A DNA stretch of 34,806 nt, taken from NCBI GenBank assembly GCA_913057925.1, contig CAJXPG010000026.1, forward strand, positions 1-34,806, read 5' to 3'. The stretch is from an uncultured Colwellia sp. (GTDB taxonomy: Bacteria > Pseudomonadota > Gammaproteobacteria > Enterobacterales > Alteromonadaceae). Within the stretch, counting starts at the first letter, position 1. Each line of letters starts with the position of its first letter. The notes beneath the pieces were generated by a model that was not told the DNA's origin, ran no database searches, and was given only the letters and a program-made list of their open reading frames with translations. Shown one piece after another: positions 12,028 through 31,093 of this stretch. Both the position numbers and the translations under genes were made by a program.

Positions 12028-14868
12028 TTAAGCGAATTGTCTTACTTCACCGTCACCATCAACGTTAGTGATACAACGACCACATAGTTCTGGGTGGGCT
12101 TCGCTTTCACCGATATCAGTCGTTACATGCCAACAACGATCACACTTAGTGCCCTCGGCAGGCGCTACGGTTAACCATAAACCTTCAACGTCTGTTTCAA
12201 GGGTGTTTTCAGGTGCTGTGGCAACGGTTTCAATGGTTACCTTTGAAATAATCAACACAAAGCGTAACTCTTCACCAAGCTTTTCTAGCTTAGCGGCTAA
12301 ATCAGCTGTCGCATATAAAGTTACTTGTGCTTCAAGTGCTTTACCGACAGTTTTTTCTTTACGCGCTTGCTCTAAGGCACGGTTTACTTCACTACGTACC
12401 GCTAGAAGTTCAGTCCAGTAGTCATTACCGAGTTCAACACTAGATTCATCCATTGTCGCTAAACCGTCAAACCATACACCTGTAAATACAAACTCATCAC
12501 GCTCACCTGTTACTGGCGTTGGTAATGCTTGCCAAATTTCTTGCGCAGTAAATGATAAGATTGGTGCCATCCATGCAGTCATTGCTTCTGCAATTAAATA
12601 CATAGCAGTTTGACAAGAGCGACGTGCATTGGAATCTGCTTTAGCCGTGTATTGTCTATCTTTAATGATATCTAGGTAGAAACCACCTAATTCGTTGGTA
12701 CAGAAGTTCATTAACTTGTGTACTACTACATGGAATTCATACTCATCGTAAGCCGCAATGATTTCTTCTTGTAAACGTGCTGCTTTATCAACAACCCAAC
12801 GGTCAAGTGCAACCATGTCGTCAAACGCAACAGTATGTTGTGCTGGCTCAAAACCATTTAAGTTAGATAACAAGAAGCGAGAGGTATTACGGATACGACG
12901 ATAAGCATCGGCTTGGCGCTTAAAGATCTCATCTGAAACCGTGATTTCTTGAGTGTAGTTCACTGAAGCAGTCCACAGACGTAAGATATCTGCGCCTAAG
13001 TTATTAGTGATACTTGATGGTGTTACCACATTGCCTAATGATTTAGACATTTTGTGGCCTTTAACATCAACGGTGAATCCGTGAGTAAGCACTTGCTTAT
13101 ATGGGGCTTTACCATTCATCGCAACAGATGAAATCATCGATGACATAAACCAACCACGATGTTGATCAGAGCCTTCTAAATATAAATCAGCAATGCCGTC
13201 AAATTCTTCACGAGCATTAACTACAGAGTGATGGGTTGTACCTGAGTCAAACCATACATCTAAAGTATCAGGCACTTTAATGTATTCTTTTGCATCATCA
13301 CCAATAAGTTCACTTGGCTCTAAATCAAACCATGCTTGAATGCCTGACTTCTCAACACGCTTAGCAACGTCTTCAATCAACTCAATACTTCGTGGGTGTA
13401 AAGCACCAGTGTCTTGGTGAATAAATAATGCCATAGGCACGCCCCACGTACGTTGACGTGAAATACACCAATCTGGACGACCTTCAACCATTGATTCAAT
13501 ACGACGTTGGCCCCAATCTGGGATCCATTGTGTTTGCTCAATCTCATTTAATGAATCTTGACGTAAACCTTTATTGTCCATGCTGATAAACCACTGCGGT
13601 GTTGCGCGGAAAATCAGTGGCGTTTTGTGTCTCCAACAGTGTGGGTAAGAATGCTCTAACGCATGGTGATGCATTAATGCACCATTCTCTTTTAATAACT
13701 CAACAACACTCGCGTTGGCTTTAAAAACATGCTGGCCAGCAAGTAGTGGCGTATCTTCAAGGTATACGCCATTAGCGCCTACAGGGTTAGCCACTTCAAG
13801 ATCATATAATTTACCAACGACGAAATCTTCTACACCGTGGCCAGGAGCGGTATGAACACAGCCTGTACCTGAATCAGTAGTAACATGGTCACCTAAAATA
13901 ACCGGTACAGTAAAGTCGTAGAATGGGTGCTGACATTTCACCAGCTCTAGCTCACTACCTTTACAGAAACCTAAAGCATGATATTTGTCTAAACCAAAGC
14001 GATCCATACACGCAGTAACAAGATCAGAAGCAAGAATTAATCGTTGCTTTTTACCTTCAACATCACATTGCACTAACGTATATTCAACATCAGCATGTAC
14101 TGAGATAGCGCGGTTAGCTGGAAGTGTCCACGGCGTTGTAGTCCAAATAACCATACCAATCTCACCTTCGCCTTTATGGCCTTCAGGGTGAGAGAATTTA
14201 TCAGCGACGGTTTCATCGCTGATAACAAATTTCACGTCAACGGCTGGTGATTGCTTGTCTTTATATTCAACTTCAGCTTCTGCTAAAGATGAGCCACAAT
14301 CAGTACACCAATGCACAGGTTTGAAACCTTGATGCAAGTGTCCGTTTTCAGCAATTTTACCTAATGAACGAATAATGTTGGCTTCAGTATCAAAGTCCAT
14401 GGTTAAGTAAGGCTTTTCCCAATCGGCAAAAATACCTAAGCGTTTAAAGTCTTCGCGTTGACCGTTTACTTGCTTGGCAGCATATTCACGACATTTTTGG
14501 CGAAAATCGCTAGCACTGATCTTATGACCCGGCTTGCCGACTTTTTTCTCTACCATTAATTCAATTGGCAGACCATGACAGTCCCAACCAGGAACAAATG
14601 GCGAGTTAAAATCAGACAAGGTTTTTGATTTAACTATGATGTCTTTTAAGATTTTATTTACAGCATGACCTAAATGAATATTGCCATTTGCATACGGAGG
14701 GCCGTCATGCAAAATAAATGACTTTTTACCTTTTTTAGCTTCACGGATCTTGCCATAAAGATCTTTAGCCGCCCAATCTTTGAGCATATTAGGTTCACGA
14801 TTAGCCATATTACCTTTCATTGCAAAGGATGTGGCAGGTAAATTCAAGGTCTGTTTATAATCACTCAT
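12028..14868 (-). CDS. ileS: Isoleucyl-tRNA synthetase
   Basis: A 946-residue class I aminoacyl-tRNA synthetase. The HIGH-type motif is HLGH at 65-68, the KMSKS motif is in [10 protein letters not shown], the editing domain lies between, and the C-terminal zinc-binding cysteines are in CDRCWH and CGRC. The start is placed at ATG 14868 ([13 protein letters not shown]), which matches the E. coli N-terminus (MSDYK). An ATG three codons upstream (14877) is also possible and has GGAT close by. It sits in the conserved ribF-ileS-lspA-fkpB order. Nothing suggests an unusual mupirocin-resistant form. Confidence 0.97.
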
Positions 14869-14998
14869 GTAAATCATTATCCGTTTATGTTGGCCGATAA
14901 CTGTAACGAAAAGTTATAAATATCAACCCGATTTATAACTGTTTATTAAACTATATTGTTTTCAAATCTATTTTGTAAATACACTTTAAAAGTAGGCG

Positions 14999-15919
14999 CT
15001 AGGCTAATACTTTCTTTGCTTGCTCACTGTCTTTTTGTATTTGCTGACGTAGCGCTTCTAAGTTTTCAAATTTTATCACTGGGCGAAGCTTCTTTTTAAC
15101 CACGACTTCAATACATTGTCCGTACAAGCTTTCATTAAAGTCAAAAAGGTGTACCTCAAGTTGTTGCCTGACACCATTTATGGTCGGTCTAGCGCCAATA
15201 TTAGCCACACCTTTGTACTCGCCAGTATCCGTTTTTACCATCACAGCAAAAACACCACTAAGCGGTGATACGCGTCTTTTTAGTAGTACATTGGCGGTAG
15301 GAAAGCCTAATTCTCGGCCACGTTTATCACCATGAAAAACACGACCTATGATTGAATATTCTCTACCAAGCATTTGCTGAGCATCAACTAAGTTATCTTG
15401 CTCTAGTGCTTGTCGAATTGCCGTAGAGCTTATTCGACAATCTGCCATTTTATAACTTTTAGTATCAGAGACATTAAAACCATACTTATCACCGGCTTGG
15501 CAAAGCATGTCAAAGTTACCTGCTCGATTTTTACCAAAATGAAAGTCATCACCTACAATAAGGTGCTTAATGCCGAGCTTGTTTACTAATAACTGTTCTA
15601 TAAAGTGTTGCGCGCTTTGACTAGCAAACTCTGCTGTGAAATTAACACAAATAAGACGCTGCACACCAAGTTTTGCCAGTAAACTATATTTATCACGTAA
15701 TCGACATAATCTTGCAGGGGCGGTTTCTGGAGAAAAAAGCTCTTGCGGCTGAGGCTCAAAGACCAAAACCGCAGCAACGCAGTTTAACGCGTCTGCTTTA
15801 CTTACCAGCGCCTTTATAACTTGCTGGTGCCCTAAATGCACACCATCAAAATTACCAATAGTTAATACACAACCATGATCTTTTGACTGAATATTATGTA
15901 TTCCGCGTACTAACTGCAT
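14999..15919 (-). CDS. ribF: Bifunctional riboflavin kinase/FAD synthetase
   Basis: A 306-residue enzyme that phosphorylates riboflavin to FMN and adenylates FMN to FAD. The N-terminal nucleotidyltransferase domain shows GNFDGVHLGH (HxGH at 28-31), VGDDFHFGKNRAG (about 122-134) and ISSTAIR (163-169). The C-terminal kinase domain shows GRELGFPTAN (about 201-210). It starts at the ATG at 15919, which overlaps the TAA of an upstream 49-codon ORF as TAATG. The nearest purine-rich sequence (AAGGC) is about 13 nt upstream, too far for a good ribosome binding site, so coupling to the upstream ORF is plausible. It precedes ileS by about 130 nt. Confidence 0.96.
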   Translation of the reverse strand: MQLVRGIHNIQSKDHGCVLTIGNFDGVHLGHQQVIKALVSKADALNCVAAVLVFEPQPQELFSPETAPARLCRLRDKYSLLAKLGVQRLICVNFTAEFASQSAQHFIEQLLVNKLGIKHLIVGDDFHFGKNRAGNFDMLCQAGDKYGFNVSDTKSYKMADCRISSTAIRQALEQDNLVDAQQMLGREYSIIGRVFHGDKRGRELGFPTANVLLKRRVSPLSGVFAVMVKTDTGEYKGVANIGARPTINGVRQQLEVHLFDFNESLYGQCIEVVVKKKLRPVIKFENLEALRQQIQKDSEQAKKVLA

Positions 15920-16068
15920 TAGCTGATATTTTGCCTTTTATTACTGACCAGTGCTTTAATTACTTCTTGATGACCTATGTGCGCGCCATCAAAGTTATCA
16001 AGAGTTAATACACACGCATTAGCTTGATCTTGTGATCGAATATTATGTATTCCACGTGCTAACTGCAT
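15919..16068 (-). pseudogene. Truncated tandem copy of the ribF start (49-codon ORF)
   Basis: This ORF begins MQLARGIHNIRSQDQ and continues through DNFDGAHIGHQEVIKALVS before ending at a TAA that overlaps the ribF ATG. Aligned with the RibF N-terminus it is about 74% identical (29 of 39 positions by hand), with one two-codon insertion (Ala-Asn) and Gly to Asp in the GNFDG motif; the HxGH motif is kept as HIGH. The similarity extends about 20 nt upstream of both ATGs, so the unit is a 149-nt direct tandem duplication. The copy lacks most of the FAD synthetase domain and all of the kinase domain, so it cannot be an enzyme. It may be a remnant or may act as a translated leader for ribF. Confidence 0.85.
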
Positions 16069-16161
16069 TTGCTATTCTTCTGCCCTTTATCCGACACTAA
16101 ATGTCTTAGATAAGTCACTGACGAACTCAAAATTTGATATTCGTATAAAATAAATCGACGA

Positions 16162-16190
16162 ATTATATACCAGCACGTTTTAATAATCAG
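16162..16190 (-). promoter_or_regulatory. Candidate sigma-70 promoter for the ribF operon
   Basis: On the leftward strand, CTGATT (complement of 16185-16190), a 17-bp spacer and a perfect TATAAT (complement of 16162-16167). Transcription would start near 16155, about 85 nt before the 49-codon ORF. The -35 box is only a half match. Confidence 0.45.
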
Positions 16191-16213
16191 TAGCTCTAAC
16201 ACTTTATTTACGC

Positions 16214-17815
16214 TTATTTTTCGTCTTTTATTACCTTCAAGTCACTCAAACGTACCCCTAACAGGGCAATCATGAGTACGTAACTACTCATTCCCACAAC
16301 AATACATAAAGTAAGCTGTTGAACTTGTTCAATAAACTTCATAGCCAACCAAACATCAAAGTCGCTCGACAATTGAAAAACAACGATTGCCATTACCCCA
16401 GCACTGATAACTAACTTTGCAATATAAATAAGCGTATTCGTTGGCAGCTGATACACGCCTGCAGCTTTCAAGCCTCGATAAAGTAACCATGCATTAAGAG
16501 TTGCTGAGAGGGTTGTTGCTAAAGCAAGGCCGACATAACCTAAAAAAGGCGCCAACATTAAGTTAAATGCCATATTAGCAACCATCGCCATAATACCTAT
16601 TTTAACTGGGGTTTTAGTATCTTGGCGCGCATAATAACCAGGAGCGAGCACCTTAATAAACATAAAACTTAATAAGCCAGATAAATAAGCAAACAGCGCC
16701 ATGGAAACCTGAATGACCGTTTGCTGAGTAAATTCACCGCCCATAAAAAGCACCATAATAATAGGTTGTGCTAATACCATTAAGCCCGCGAGCGCAGGCC
16801 AGCCAAAGAGTGAGATGACGCGAATCCCCCAGTCTAAAGTCGCAGCAAACTCTGCGGGGTTCTTTTTACTGTGAAGTTTTGACAATCGAGGTAATACTAC
16901 CGTAGCGATACCTATGCCGAATAAGCCAAGGGGAAATTCTAATAATCTATCGGCGAAATAAAGCCAACTAATAGAGCCTGTAATTAAAAAGCTGGCAATA
17001 AGCGTATCAAGAAGTAAGTTTATTTGCGTGACTGAAACACCAAAAAGCGCCGGTACAATCAGTTTTCGAACTTTACTAACGCCTTCACTATGCCAAGCCC
17101 ATTTAGGCTTAACCAACATGCCTGCTTTATAAAGAAAAGGAATTTGAAAAATAAACTGGATTAAACCACCTAAGAATACCCCCCACGCAAGTGCATGAGC
17201 AGGACTTTCGGTATACGGTGCGCCCCAAATTGCCATGCTAATGATGGCAACATTTAATAATACCGGCGTAAAAGCTGCGACAGCAAAGCGCCCCATAGTA
17301 TTTAACACCGCCCCTGCTAACGCAGTAAAGCTAATAAACCATAAATAAGGAAAAGTGATTTTTAGTAGGTCACTTGCCAGATCAAACTTTTCTCCGCCTG
17401 GGGCGCCGTTATACCAGTCAATAAACCAACCAAAACCAAACAATGCCACCACAACAGGCGAAGCAATCATGCCAAATAAGGTAACCCAAGTAATAATAAC
17501 GCCTAAAGTACCTGATACTTGTGCAATGAGCAGGCGAGTCTGCTGATGATGGTTTTGTTGTTCGCTAGCCGTAGCTTGCTCTTCATCTTTAACTTGGTAT
17601 TCACTTAATACTGGTACAAAAGCTTGAGCAAAAGCACCTTCGGCAAACAGTCTACGTAAAAAATTAGGGATTTTATTGGCCAGTAAAAACACATCAGACA
17701 TAGCCCCTGCGCCCATTACATTAGCGATAACCACATCACGAATTAAACCAAGCACACGTGAAATCAAGGTCATGATACTGACTATCAACCCAGATTTTAT
17801 TAACTTCTTACTCAA
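16214..17815 (-). CDS. murJ: Lipid II flippase MurJ (MviN)
   Basis: A 533-residue polytopic membrane protein of the MOP superfamily that moves lipid-linked peptidoglycan precursors across the inner membrane. Visible family features are SRVLGLIRDVVIA at the N-terminus, GAMSDVFLLANKIPNFLRRLFAEGAFAQAF (split across the first loop and helix 2), and about 14 hydrophobic segments. The start is TTG at 17815, with AAGGGGA about 5 nt upstream; the next in-frame ATG is 14 codons further on and would remove part of helix 1. It is divergent from rpsT, and ribF lies downstream, an order seen in other marine gammaproteobacteria. Confidence 0.95.
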   Translation of the reverse strand: MSKKLIKSGLIVSIMTLISRVLGLIRDVVIANVMGAGAMSDVFLLANKIPNFLRRLFAEGAFAQAFVPVLSEYQVKDEEQATASEQQNHHQQTRLLIAQVSGTLGVIITWVTLFGMIASPVVVALFGFGWFIDWYNGAPGGEKFDLASDLLKITFPYLWFISFTALAGAVLNTMGRFAVAAFTPVLLNVAIISMAIWGAPYTESPAHALAWGVFLGGLIQFIFQIPFLYKAGMLVKPKWAWHSEGVSKVRKLIVPALFGVSVTQINLLLDTLIASFLITGSISWLYFADRLLEFPLGLFGIGIATVVLPRLSKLHSKKNPAEFAATLDWGIRVISLFGWPALAGLMVLAQPIIMVLFMGGEFTQQTVIQVSMALFAYLSGLLSFMFIKVLAPGYYARQDTKTPVKIGIMAMVANMAFNLMLAPFLGYVGLALATTLSATLNAWLLYRGLKAAGVYQLPTNTLIYIAKLVISAGVMAIVVFQLSSDFDVWLAMKFIEQVQQLTLCIVVGMSSYVLMIALLGVRLSDLKVIKDEK

Positions 17816-23129: not shown

Positions 23130-23855
23130 ATGAAAAAAACATGTGTCATTACCGGTGGTAGCTCAGGAATAGGCCTAAGCATTGTTAAACTTTTTATTGA
23201 AAATGACTATCAGGTCTTTAATTTAGATTTATCTCCCGGCACTGAAGGTGACTTTCGACAGTGTGATGTGACTAACCTCGAGCAAGTTAGTGAGATTATT
23301 CATGACATCGCAAGCCAGCATAATATCGATGTATTAGTATCAAATGCAGGGGTTCACTTCTCAGCAACCATTGAAAATACCAGTGAAGCAGATTTAGACA
23401 AGGTTTTTGCCATTAATGTTAAAGGTGCCTATGCGGCAATAAAATCTGTACTACCAAATATGAAAGCCAATAAGCAGGGCGCAATTATTTTAATGGCCTC
23501 TGATCAGGCATTAATTGCTAAGCAAAACTCATTCGCTTATAACTTGAGTAAAACTGCCCTCGCCTCTATCGCAAAAACTACCGCGCTTGATTATGCCGCC
23601 TTTAACATTCGCGCTAACGCAGTGTGTCCTGGCACTATTGAAACGCCACTTTACCATCAAGCCATCGATAATTACTGTCAAAAATCGGGTAGTGATAAAG
23701 CCGCGGTGCATTTAGAAGAAGAAAAACTACAGCCCTTGCAGCGCTTAGGCCAACCAGAAGAAGTTGCCGAGTTAGTGTTATTTTTAGCTTCAGATAAAGC
23801 CAAATTTATTACCGGAAGTCTGCAAGTCATTGATGGTGGTTACACCGCGCAGTAA
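23130..23855 (+). CDS. Short-chain dehydrogenase/reductase of the sugar-acid cluster
   Basis: A 241-residue classical SDR. TGGSSGIG is at 8-15, Asp33 at the end of strand 2 suggests NAD rather than NADP, NAG is at 72-74, and the catalytic residues are Ser124, Tyr137 and Lys141. The C-terminal motif ITGSLQVIDGGYTAQ is typical. Its neighbour is a COG3618 lactonase and a DgoD-like dehydratase is close by, so it probably oxidises a sugar to its lactone or a 2-keto-3-deoxy sugar acid, as in non-phosphorylative L-fucose pathways. A seven-codon ORF (23101-23124) ends 5 nt before the start and overlaps its GGAT ribosome binding site. Its stop codon is part of the first 40-bp repeat unit. Confidence 0.82.
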   Translation: MKKTCVITGGSSGIGLSIVKLFIENDYQVFNLDLSPGTEGDFRQCDVTNLEQVSEIIHDIASQHNIDVLVSNAGVHFSATIENTSEADLDKVFAINVKGAYAAIKSVLPNMKANKQGAIILMASDQALIAKQNSFAYNLSKTALASIAKTTALDYAAFNIRANAVCPGTIETPLYHQAIDNYCQKSGSDKAAVHLEEEKLQPLQRLGQPEEVAELVLFLASDKAKFITGSLQVIDGGYTAQ

Positions 23856-23969
23856 GCTATTTAAACTTGGTAAGCACACACTACTATGACAGTAAAAGCT
23901 ACTTAAACTTGGTAAGTACACCACTATGACAGTAAAAGCTATTTAAACTTGGTAAGCACACTACTATGA
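23850..23969 (+). repeat. Three 40-bp direct repeats that duplicate a gene start region
   Basis: Units start at CAGTAA in 23850, 23890 and 23930, and the same CAGTAA recurs at 23970 inside the lactonase gene. Each unit carries ATTTAAACTTGGTAAG or a close variant and ends in an ATG. The ATGs at 23886 and 23926 open six-codon ORFs, MTVKAT and MTVKAI, each closed at once by TAA. The third ATG (23966) is the lactonase start, MTVKII. The units differ by a few bases only. There are no spacers, so this is not a CRISPR array. Confidence 0.92.
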
Positions 23970-24865
23970 CAGTAAAAATTATTGACCCGCATATCCACCT
24001 ATTTTCCCGAAAGGCAGGTGATTATCACTGGCTAAAAAGTGATAACCCACCTTTTTGGTCTGATAAAAAAATAATTCAACGAGATTTTACTCCGCATGAT
24101 TTAACTTTGTCTAAAGGTATGATGTTAGAAGGCTTTGTTCATATCGAGGCCGGCTTTGATAATAACAAACCTTGGCGTGAACTTGATTACATTGAAGAGT
24201 TAGCGAGTGAAAACGCGCGAACAATTGCGGCGATAAATTTAGTAGACTCACCAGCAGACTTTAAAATAAAACTTGCAAAAGTATTGTCTTATTCAAGCCT
24301 TGTTGGTGTTAGGCATATCCTTGATGAGCAGGCGCTGAGTATTCTATCTGAGTCAAACACACAAGCAAACTTTAGCCAATTAAATGAGATAGCACATTTA
24401 ATTTTTGAATTACAGCTGCCACTAGCCGAAGAAAGCAGTAATGAAGTAATGTCCTTATTAACTAAAACTATTGCTGATAATAACCAACTACGTTTTATAA
24501 TCAACCACGCTGGTTTTCCGCCCAGAGATCCCCATGGCAAGCAGTGGAAGTTATGGCAGAAAAATATAACTGCGCTTGCCCAATACCCCAATGTTTTTAT
24601 TAAATGTTCAGGCATGGAGATGATTGACCGTCAATACTCCTTGGCGTGGTTTAGTGATGTTGCCAATTTTTGTTTGTTGAGTTTCTCACAGTACAGAACA
24701 ATGCTAGCGAGTAACTTTCCGCTATGTTTATTCAGTAAAGAAAGTTACAACGCGTATTGGCAAGATATTTTAGCGTCTAACTTTATTAAACAGCTTGATA
24801 CAAAAGAAAAAAGCGCATTGTTATACCACAATGCGCTTCGTATTTATCAACGAACAAACGAGTAA
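23966..24865 (+). CDS. COG3618 amidohydrolase, probable sugar lactonase
   Basis: A 299-residue TIM-barrel amidohydrolase of the COG3618 group, whose known members hydrolyse L-fucono-, L-rhamnono- or related lactones. Metal-binding DPHIH is at 7-11, VHIEAG follows at about 58-63, His181 lies in INHAGFPP, and PNVFIKCSG at about 208-216 matches the family. The usual C-terminal SDWP motif, with its catalytic aspartate, reads SNFP here (Asn250), as in one subset of the family. It follows the SDR by 110 nt of 40-bp repeats, from which its first four codons derive. It converges on the dehydratase gene with only 21 nt between stops and no terminator in the gap. Confidence 0.8.
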   Translation: MTVKIIDPHIHLFSRKAGDYHWLKSDNPPFWSDKKIIQRDFTPHDLTLSKGMMLEGFVHIEAGFDNNKPWRELDYIEELASENARTIAAINLVDSPADFKIKLAKVLSYSSLVGVRHILDEQALSILSESNTQANFSQLNEIAHLIFELQLPLAEESSNEVMSLLTKTIADNNQLRFIINHAGFPPRDPHGKQWKLWQKNITALAQYPNVFIKCSGMEMIDRQYSLAWFSDVANFCLLSFSQYRTMLASNFPLCLFSKESYNAYWQDILASNFIKQLDTKEKSALLYHNALRIYQRTNE

Positions 24866-30128: not shown

Positions 30129-30596
30129 TCAACTCATCATTGATTGTAGGTAATTCTCAATACCCGCATTATCGATAATGTATTGTTGCGACTCTATCCA
30201 ATCAATTTGCTCTTCAACATTTTCAAGTAAATCTTCTGCTAAGTCTCTACTGATGTAGTCTTGCAACTTTTCACTTTCCACGATGAGGCTCTGTAAAGCT
30301 TTGCGGGAAACATATTCTAAATCCATATTCGACTGTAACATCTCTTGTGCATGTTCACCGATATGCAGTTTACCGAGATCTTGTAAGTTAGGAAGTCCTT
30401 CTAGAAACAAAATCCGCTCAATAAGATCATCGGCTTGCTTCATTTTTTCAATCGAAATTTTGTAATCTGCTTTATTTAACTTATCCAAGCCCCAATTTTT
30501 ATACATACGTGCATGTAAAAAATATTGATTGATGGCTATTAACTCAATTGCTAACGCGGCATTTAATAAAGCGATTATTTTTTTATCACCTTTCAT
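30129..30596 (-). CDS. bfr: Bacterioferritin, haem-binding subunit with degenerate ferroxidase site
   Basis: A 155-residue four-helix ferritin-like subunit, aligned by eye to E. coli Bfr without gaps. The haem-ligand Met52 is kept. Of the six ferroxidase ligands only Glu18 and Glu94 remain; position 51 is Lys, 54 is Gln, 127 is Val and 130 is Gln. It should therefore bind haem at the subunit interface but not oxidise iron by itself. It is the second gene of a two-gene operon, 11 nt after its partner, which has the opposite set of residues. The pair should co-assemble in the 24-mer, as described for BfrA/BfrB pairs in Neisseria and others. Confidence 0.93.
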   Translation of the reverse strand: MKGDKKIIALLNAALAIELIAINQYFLHARMYKNWGLDKLNKADYKISIEKMKQADDLIERILFLEGLPNLQDLGKLHIGEHAQEMLQSNMDLEYVSRKALQSLIVESEKLQDYISRDLAEDLLENVEEQIDWIESQQYIIDNAGIENYLQSMMS

Positions 30597-30607
30597 TAGA
30601 TATCCCC

Positions 30608-31093
30608 TTACCCAGGTAAATGTTGTCCCATATGCGATTGAATATAGTTTGGCAGGCCAATTTTATCGATGAGACCTAACTGTTGTTCCAGCCAATAAAC
30701 ATGATCCTCTTCAGTATCTTCCAGCAGTTTCTCAAGCATTTCTCTACTTTGATAGTCACCTTCACTTTCACATAGAGTAATTGTAGCTTTTAACGCTGCA
30801 ACAACTTCCATCTCAAGAATTAAATCATTTTTAAGCATGCTAGGAACATCATCACCAATAAGTAGATCTCGACGATCGGTTAGATTTGGTGTGCCCTCAA
30901 GAAATAAAATGCGTTTGATTAGCGCATCAGCATGGGTTATTTCTTCCTGCATCTCATGATCTAGTTGCTCATAGAGTTTATCTAAGCCCCAGTCTTGATA
31001 CATTCGAGAATGAGTAAAGTATTGATCTATTGCCGCTAACTCGTTGTGCAACAATCCATTTAAACTAGCTATAACCTTTGCGTTACCTTTCAT
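30608..31093 (-). CDS. bfr: Bacterioferritin, ferroxidase subunit lacking the haem methionine
   Basis: A 161-residue ferritin-like subunit. The ferroxidase ligands Glu18, Glu51, His54 and Glu94 are present, and Glu128/His131 correspond to E. coli Glu127/His130 after a one-residue insertion (EDTEEDHVYWLE). The haem ligand position 52 is Ile, so it should not bind haem alone. AGAGGTG lies 4 nt before the ATG. It is the first gene of the pair. The DNA upstream (31094-31337) is AT-rich and holds no Fur box that I can recognise, unlike bfd. Confidence 0.94.
   Translation of the reverse strand: MKGNAKVIASLNGLLHNELAAIDQYFTHSRMYQDWGLDKLYEQLDHEMQEEITHADALIKRILFLEGTPNLTDRRDLLIGDDVPSMLKNDLILEMEVVAALKATITLCESEGDYQSREMLEKLLEDTEEDHVYWLEQQLGLIDKIGLPNYIQSHMGQHLPG

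Follow-up and report, generated by a model that had tools for sequence, protein, structure and literature searches.

The start of ribF is repeated in a 34,806-nucleotide stretch of DNA from an uncultured Colwellia sp. (the window), where a short open reading frame (ORF) encoding a second, diverged RibF N-terminus lies directly upstream of the intact gene. We consider it probable that this arrangement arose by partial tandem duplication at a locus where start copies recur, and that the upstream ORF is a by-product of little effect.

The duplicated ribF start

On the minus strand, from 16090 to 15804, two copies lie head to tail, each combining the last part of the ribF leader with about 40 codons. 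The direct repeat falls into two parts, 15941-16025 against 15798-15882 (76% identity, spacing 143) and 16025-16090 against 15876-15941 (83% identity, spacing 149). The 6-base difference in spacing is due to a two-codon insertion in the upstream copy. The local score of the upstream copy was 121, while the maximum in 100 base shuffles was 27; here, as in the genus and tail comparisons below, shuffling preserved the base counts and nothing else. The features of the locus are the following.

14999..15919, minus strand: ribF, bifunctional riboflavin kinase / FAD synthetase, full length, 306 codons (ORF, Pfam)
15804..15941, minus strand: downstream repeat copy, leader and first codons of the real ribF (repeat alignment, shuffle score)
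15919..16068, minus strand: 49-codon upstream ORF, diverged RibF N-terminus with a two-codon insertion, TAA overlapping the ribF ATG (ORF, Pfam, protein search)
15920..15941, minus strand: leader of the real ribF with AAGG at -18, doubling as the last codons of the upstream ORF (relatives' leaders)
15941..15945, minus strand: probable join, AGTAA (brief identity, in relatives, of the leader with ribF codons 40-42)
15947..16090, minus strand: upstream repeat copy, 22 nt of leader and ribF start (repeat alignment, shuffle score)
16069..16090, minus strand: leader belonging to the upstream copy (repeat and leader comparison)
16100..16144, minus strand: two hairpin-like segments of the 5' untranslated region, not duplicated, common to clade A relatives
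16162..16169, minus strand: TATATAAT, promoter -10-like, single (not duplicated) in the window (upstream of ribF in 39/39 genus loci)
16214..17815, minus strand: gene upstream of ribF, which we take to be murJ-like from its protein (ORF)

The tandem duplication named in the original prediction is therefore real, and the 49-codon ORF does end on ribF as TAATG. The duplicated leader portion, put at about 20 nt, measured about 22 nt. The predicted identity of 29 in 39 residues became 30 in 40 on recount (10 amino-acid differences in the 40 aligned codons), and both the HxGH, present as HIGH, and the two-codon insertion were as described. Pfam FAD_syn matched the 49-codon ORF (E 2.1e-08, 34.6 bits, cut-off 27), and a protein search of the same genome found 71% identity over residues 1-42 and no third place besides these two.

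Partial tandem (5'-end) gene duplication is a known kind of bacterial rearrangement. The ribF locus resembles it in the head-to-tail leader and gene start, the intact gene downstream and the later divergence or deletion, and perhaps in a short match at the join. It differs in recurring, within a single genus, at one gene of the essential type, with indications of gene conversion and leader replacement. Such a duplication would have put the end of the leader and about 42 codons directly upstream of ribF on the lineage of this species, with joining probably at the AGTAA match, which was deduced entirely from the relatives' sequences. Our literature search, with most subscription papers outside its scope, returned nothing on a copied ribF start.

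An assembly chimera of two strains would also place two starts side by side, and the genome is a 260-contig draft, 93% complete. However, the copies have diverged by roughly a fifth, with just some 5 bases in common at the join, and similar copies are found in five other genomes. Moreover, the copy has lost invariant RibF residues and so is not the working allele of another strain. We regard a chimera as extremely improbable.

Start copies across the genus

The gene was found in 39 of 39 genus genomes examined, and the upstream sequence was read in each. A copy of the ribF start between promoter and gene scored above every shuffle in six of them, two weakly. The window (121), L029 (123), L026 (94) and L025 (58) carry the clear copies, and L030 (34, shuffle maximum 29) and L037 (33, maximum 27) the weak ones. 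The other 33 loci have no recognisable copy, nor do those of other genera, where none of 40 loci, chosen by us from the listed part of 395 genomes, exceeded its own shuffles (L077 and L104 were shortened by contig ends). An earlier scan with 20 shuffles had L005, L006, L012, L019 and L040 exceeding the shuffle maximum by 1-4 points; with 100 shuffles and a shorter stretch the first four fell under it. L040 reached 29 against a maximum of 26; its matching segment, at -423 to -390, sits within the upstream gene and was not counted. Remnants in L038-L040 were likewise left out: the promoter distance fits in L039 and L040 (185 and 184), but the sequences did not rise above shuffles against ribF.

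Two controls were used. The start of ileS in the same genus gave no copies, with 30 of 30 loci scoring at most 22 (Fisher values 0.032 and 0.012, relatedness being ignored). A scan of 540 gene starts, drawn from four genus genomes (40 stretches of 20 kb) plus the window, gave three scores of at least 32. All three belong to the window, namely ribF, a neighbouring paralogue pair and a second repeat of a gene start, at 23854-23977. The second repeat consists of three copies of a 40-base unit with the leader and ATG ACA GTA AAA of the gene at 23966-24865; its two upstream units are tiny ORFs, MTVKAT and MTVKAI. That gene is present in 35/39 genus genomes, and a motif look-up in 6 of them found the window's own locus alone. 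The window also holds TTTAAGG repeated 4.9 times with no mismatch (1766-1799) and two similar adjoining genes on the minus strand at 30129-31093, presumably bacterioferritin-like.

We built a 39-row species tree from ribF minus its start together with the 3' portion of the gene upstream. The window falls in clade A (20 species, support 100/99), probably as sister to the other 19 species (88/60), and the other five carriers all belong to clade B (15 species, 99/98). From this phylogeny, at least two origins of the copies are probable. We considered whether the window and clade B copies go back to one event, as both have DQ followed by an insertion; since the insertion length (two codons against one), the extent and the leaders differ, we treat them as separate, short of proof. 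The distance from TATATAAT to the ribF start in clade B is 184-191 in L025, L026, L030, L039 and L040, 164 in L037, 215 in L038, 308 in L029 and 56-88 in the other seven species; in four outgroup species it is 64-67.

The copies of L025, L026 and L029 have a common tail (scores 101-135) and thus descend from one copy. L035 is nested among these three species (96/86, 100/99) and has no copy. Its ribF leader agrees with the leader of the L026 copy at 38 of 40 bases, but with that of L026's own ribF at 13 of 40 (for L025 and L031 the ungapped leader comparison gave close values, 20 against 17 of 40). The leader match indicates that in L035 the copied start apparently became the ribF start when the intervening stretch was lost. 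In both the copy and the ribF of L026, codon 7 is ATT and codon 12 is TCA, variants that the other 14 clade B ribFs listed all lack, and in L029 both have GCA at codon 12. Such species-specific variants next to an old common tail suggest gene conversion in these two species, the alternative being a fresh local duplication. By eye, L029 appears to hold a third, decayed copy.

Together, these patterns are consistent with a recurrent cycle at ribF of this genus, in which start copies would arise, exchange sequence with the real start and get deleted.

Ribosome site and stop-start overlap

We then considered whether the upstream ORF is a selected translated leader, whose ribosomes end at the TAA and restart on the overlapping ATG, thereby setting the RibF level. 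The overlap itself speaks for it, as does the upstream ORF's own leader, which carries AAGG and AGAAG. A precedent comes from E. coli, where the stop of the iraD leader ORF reaches over the start codon of the gene that follows and RNA structure is reported to hide the downstream ribosome site (PMC5574718). At ribF the stop of the upstream ORF overlaps the downstream start in the same way. The abstract of that study does not present the iraD leader as copied from iraD, whereas the ribF upstream ORF is a copy of the ribF start. Reinitiation at overlapping cistrons was likewise reported for an M13 geneV-geneVII reporter, a tested coupled pair (PMC2268962); a restart after a nearby stop is thus physically possible, and at ribF it is a prediction from sequence.

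The distant AAGGC of the real ribF start, pointed out in the original prediction, is not a defect: AAGG at -18 is also present in 5/5 copy-free clade A relatives tested (L003, L005, L006, L008 and L010), so that ribF has kept its leader and its own ribosome site. The predicted cost of opening the ribF start is 8.7 kcal/mol, compared with 8.5-9.3 in five copy-free relatives, and it drops slightly, to 7.2 kcal/mol, with the upstream ORF held open (predictions on sequences cut at an assumed transcript start). By these predictions the ribF site is as accessible as that of copy-free relatives, unlike the hidden iraD site (PMC5574718). The small drop with the upstream ORF open favours a translated leader; the kept, unhidden site argues against it.

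The TAATG overlap comes with the ancestral leader. The two bases before the ribF ATG are TA in 16/19 clade A relatives and TG in 3/19, so one leader frame ends on the start codon in each of them, and in at least L006, L008 and L013, all copy-free, short ORFs also end there. The overlap was therefore inherited from the leader, and the length of the duplication merely put the upstream ORF into the frame that ends on the ribF start. Nor does the arrangement appear conserved among relatives with the ORF: the stop ends at +1, -6, -44, -44 and -15 relative to the ribF start in the five carriers with an open copy. The copied start codon is gone in L030, and the whole copy in L035. The comparison of the ribF-upstream gap in relatives, suggested as a check, did recover further copies, but with variable stop-start geometry and one loss. 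The case for coupling is weak, and a selected translated leader seems to us quite unlikely, even counting the open, constrained frame described below.

We also inspected the rest of the region upstream of ribF. A scan for consensus promoters and terminators reported none, and an Rfam search of 14800-16500 gave no family match at E up to 1. The fold of 310 nt comprising leader and start had a z of -1.75, equalled by 7/100 shuffles, so there is no strong predicted structure. The untranslated region hairpins correspond to columns 26-49 and 62-81 of a 10-sequence alignment, with changes on both sides in 1/30 predicted pairs. L014 and L004/L007 have extra sequence starting GTACCAATCCATATAAG between TATATAAT and the ribF start, which by eye resembles a small mobile repeat.

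Possible selection on the copied frame

The original prediction saw an open frame in diverged DNA as the reason to look further. This argument is weak, since 0.38-0.40 of neutral simulations with the same 18 changes stayed open. The kind of change speaks against plain debris. Against a reconstructed ancestor, the 40 codons of the copy have 10 synonymous and 8 replacement changes, and those of ribF 5 and 2. Open neutral simulations had 13.0-14.1 replacements expected, and P(<=8) ranged from 0 in the sample to 0.007 (with a consensus built from 18 ribF starts).

When 21 ribF starts and the copy were fitted with a codon model along the species tree, joining the copy to its own ribF gave an omega of 0.19. 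The p value is 0.019 for a difference from 1 and 0.12 for a difference from the 0.07 of ribF. The best attachment was near L005, 7 log units better (lnL -873.45 against -880.5), with an omega of 0.24 (p 0.008 against 1; p 0.019 against the ribF value). The pairwise omega of copy and ribF was 0.11, which includes constraint on ribF itself. The low omega and the few replacements indicate that the copy was constrained for a large part of its past. It has not been preserved as a RibF start, since I21, G22 and V27, invariant in 79/79 RibFs, are all altered. The GNFDGxH motif is not intact in the copy, which has D at a glycine invariant in 79/79 RibFs. The proposed comparison of synonymous and replacement change supports constraint. 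As for the two readings offered originally, debris or translated leader, each is partly opposed: pure debris by the few replacements and the lower opening cost with the ORF held open, the leader by the site, the overlap and the geometry.

Pairwise synonymous/replacement codon differences among the clade B copies are 6/9, 5/5 and 5/9, with no clear sign of selection at the codon level. The synonymous difference over the first 42 ribF codons is 0.38-0.67, lower than the 0.53-0.94 of six later stretches (window and 12 relatives).

Synonymous-biased changes with no present function would be expected if the copy had once been part of a full-length gene. That gene could have been a complete tandem ribF, trimmed since, or a diverged allele of which recombination brought in a piece. 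The 10 to 8 ratio fits this, and so does the synonymous difference between the copy and its own ribF, 14/26 sites, which equals the depth seen from one genus species to another (pairwise comparison of 12 species). The likelihood placement near L005 fits as well. However, the L005 ribF start has zero branch length in the 5' DNA tree (23 of the 39 ribF starts plus the copy), so the placement may reflect no more than closeness of the copy to the ancestral state; that tree pairs the copy with its own ribF, with weak support (34/76). A donor search by sliding identity along the two flanking genes gave no signal, and the window's untranslated region is nearest to that of L008, not L005 (15 regions, longer ones dropped). 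A whole second ribF was seen in none of the genus genomes. We therefore find a full-length past unlikely.

The synonymous bias may stem from a longer-gene past, exchange with ribF or weak leader selection. An open frame in five of six carriers is more than careless decay would lead one to expect. One could speculate that ribF in this genus repeatedly builds its own leader ORF from start copies, translated and weakly selected, with recombination exchanging the translation leader; we hold this to be distinctly improbable.

The constrained copy, the L005 placement, the five open frames and the 7.2 kcal/mol with the ORF open all count against a by-product, which nevertheless remains our preferred explanation. 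After a partial tandem duplication of little effect, the one promoter upstream would drive a transcript with the short ORF first and ribF behind it. Its own leader and start make it probable that the short ORF is translated. Most likely, ribF still starts on its inherited ribosome site, and ribosomes ending at the overlapping stop would aid it at most slightly.

Upstream ORFs whose stop overlaps the next start are often taken as regulators; here, one would have arisen as a by-product of duplication. The ribF locus suggests that a start copy can stay open for long, swap sequence with its gene, vanish and leave an altered leader behind, and it offers a testable case for leader change in needed genes.
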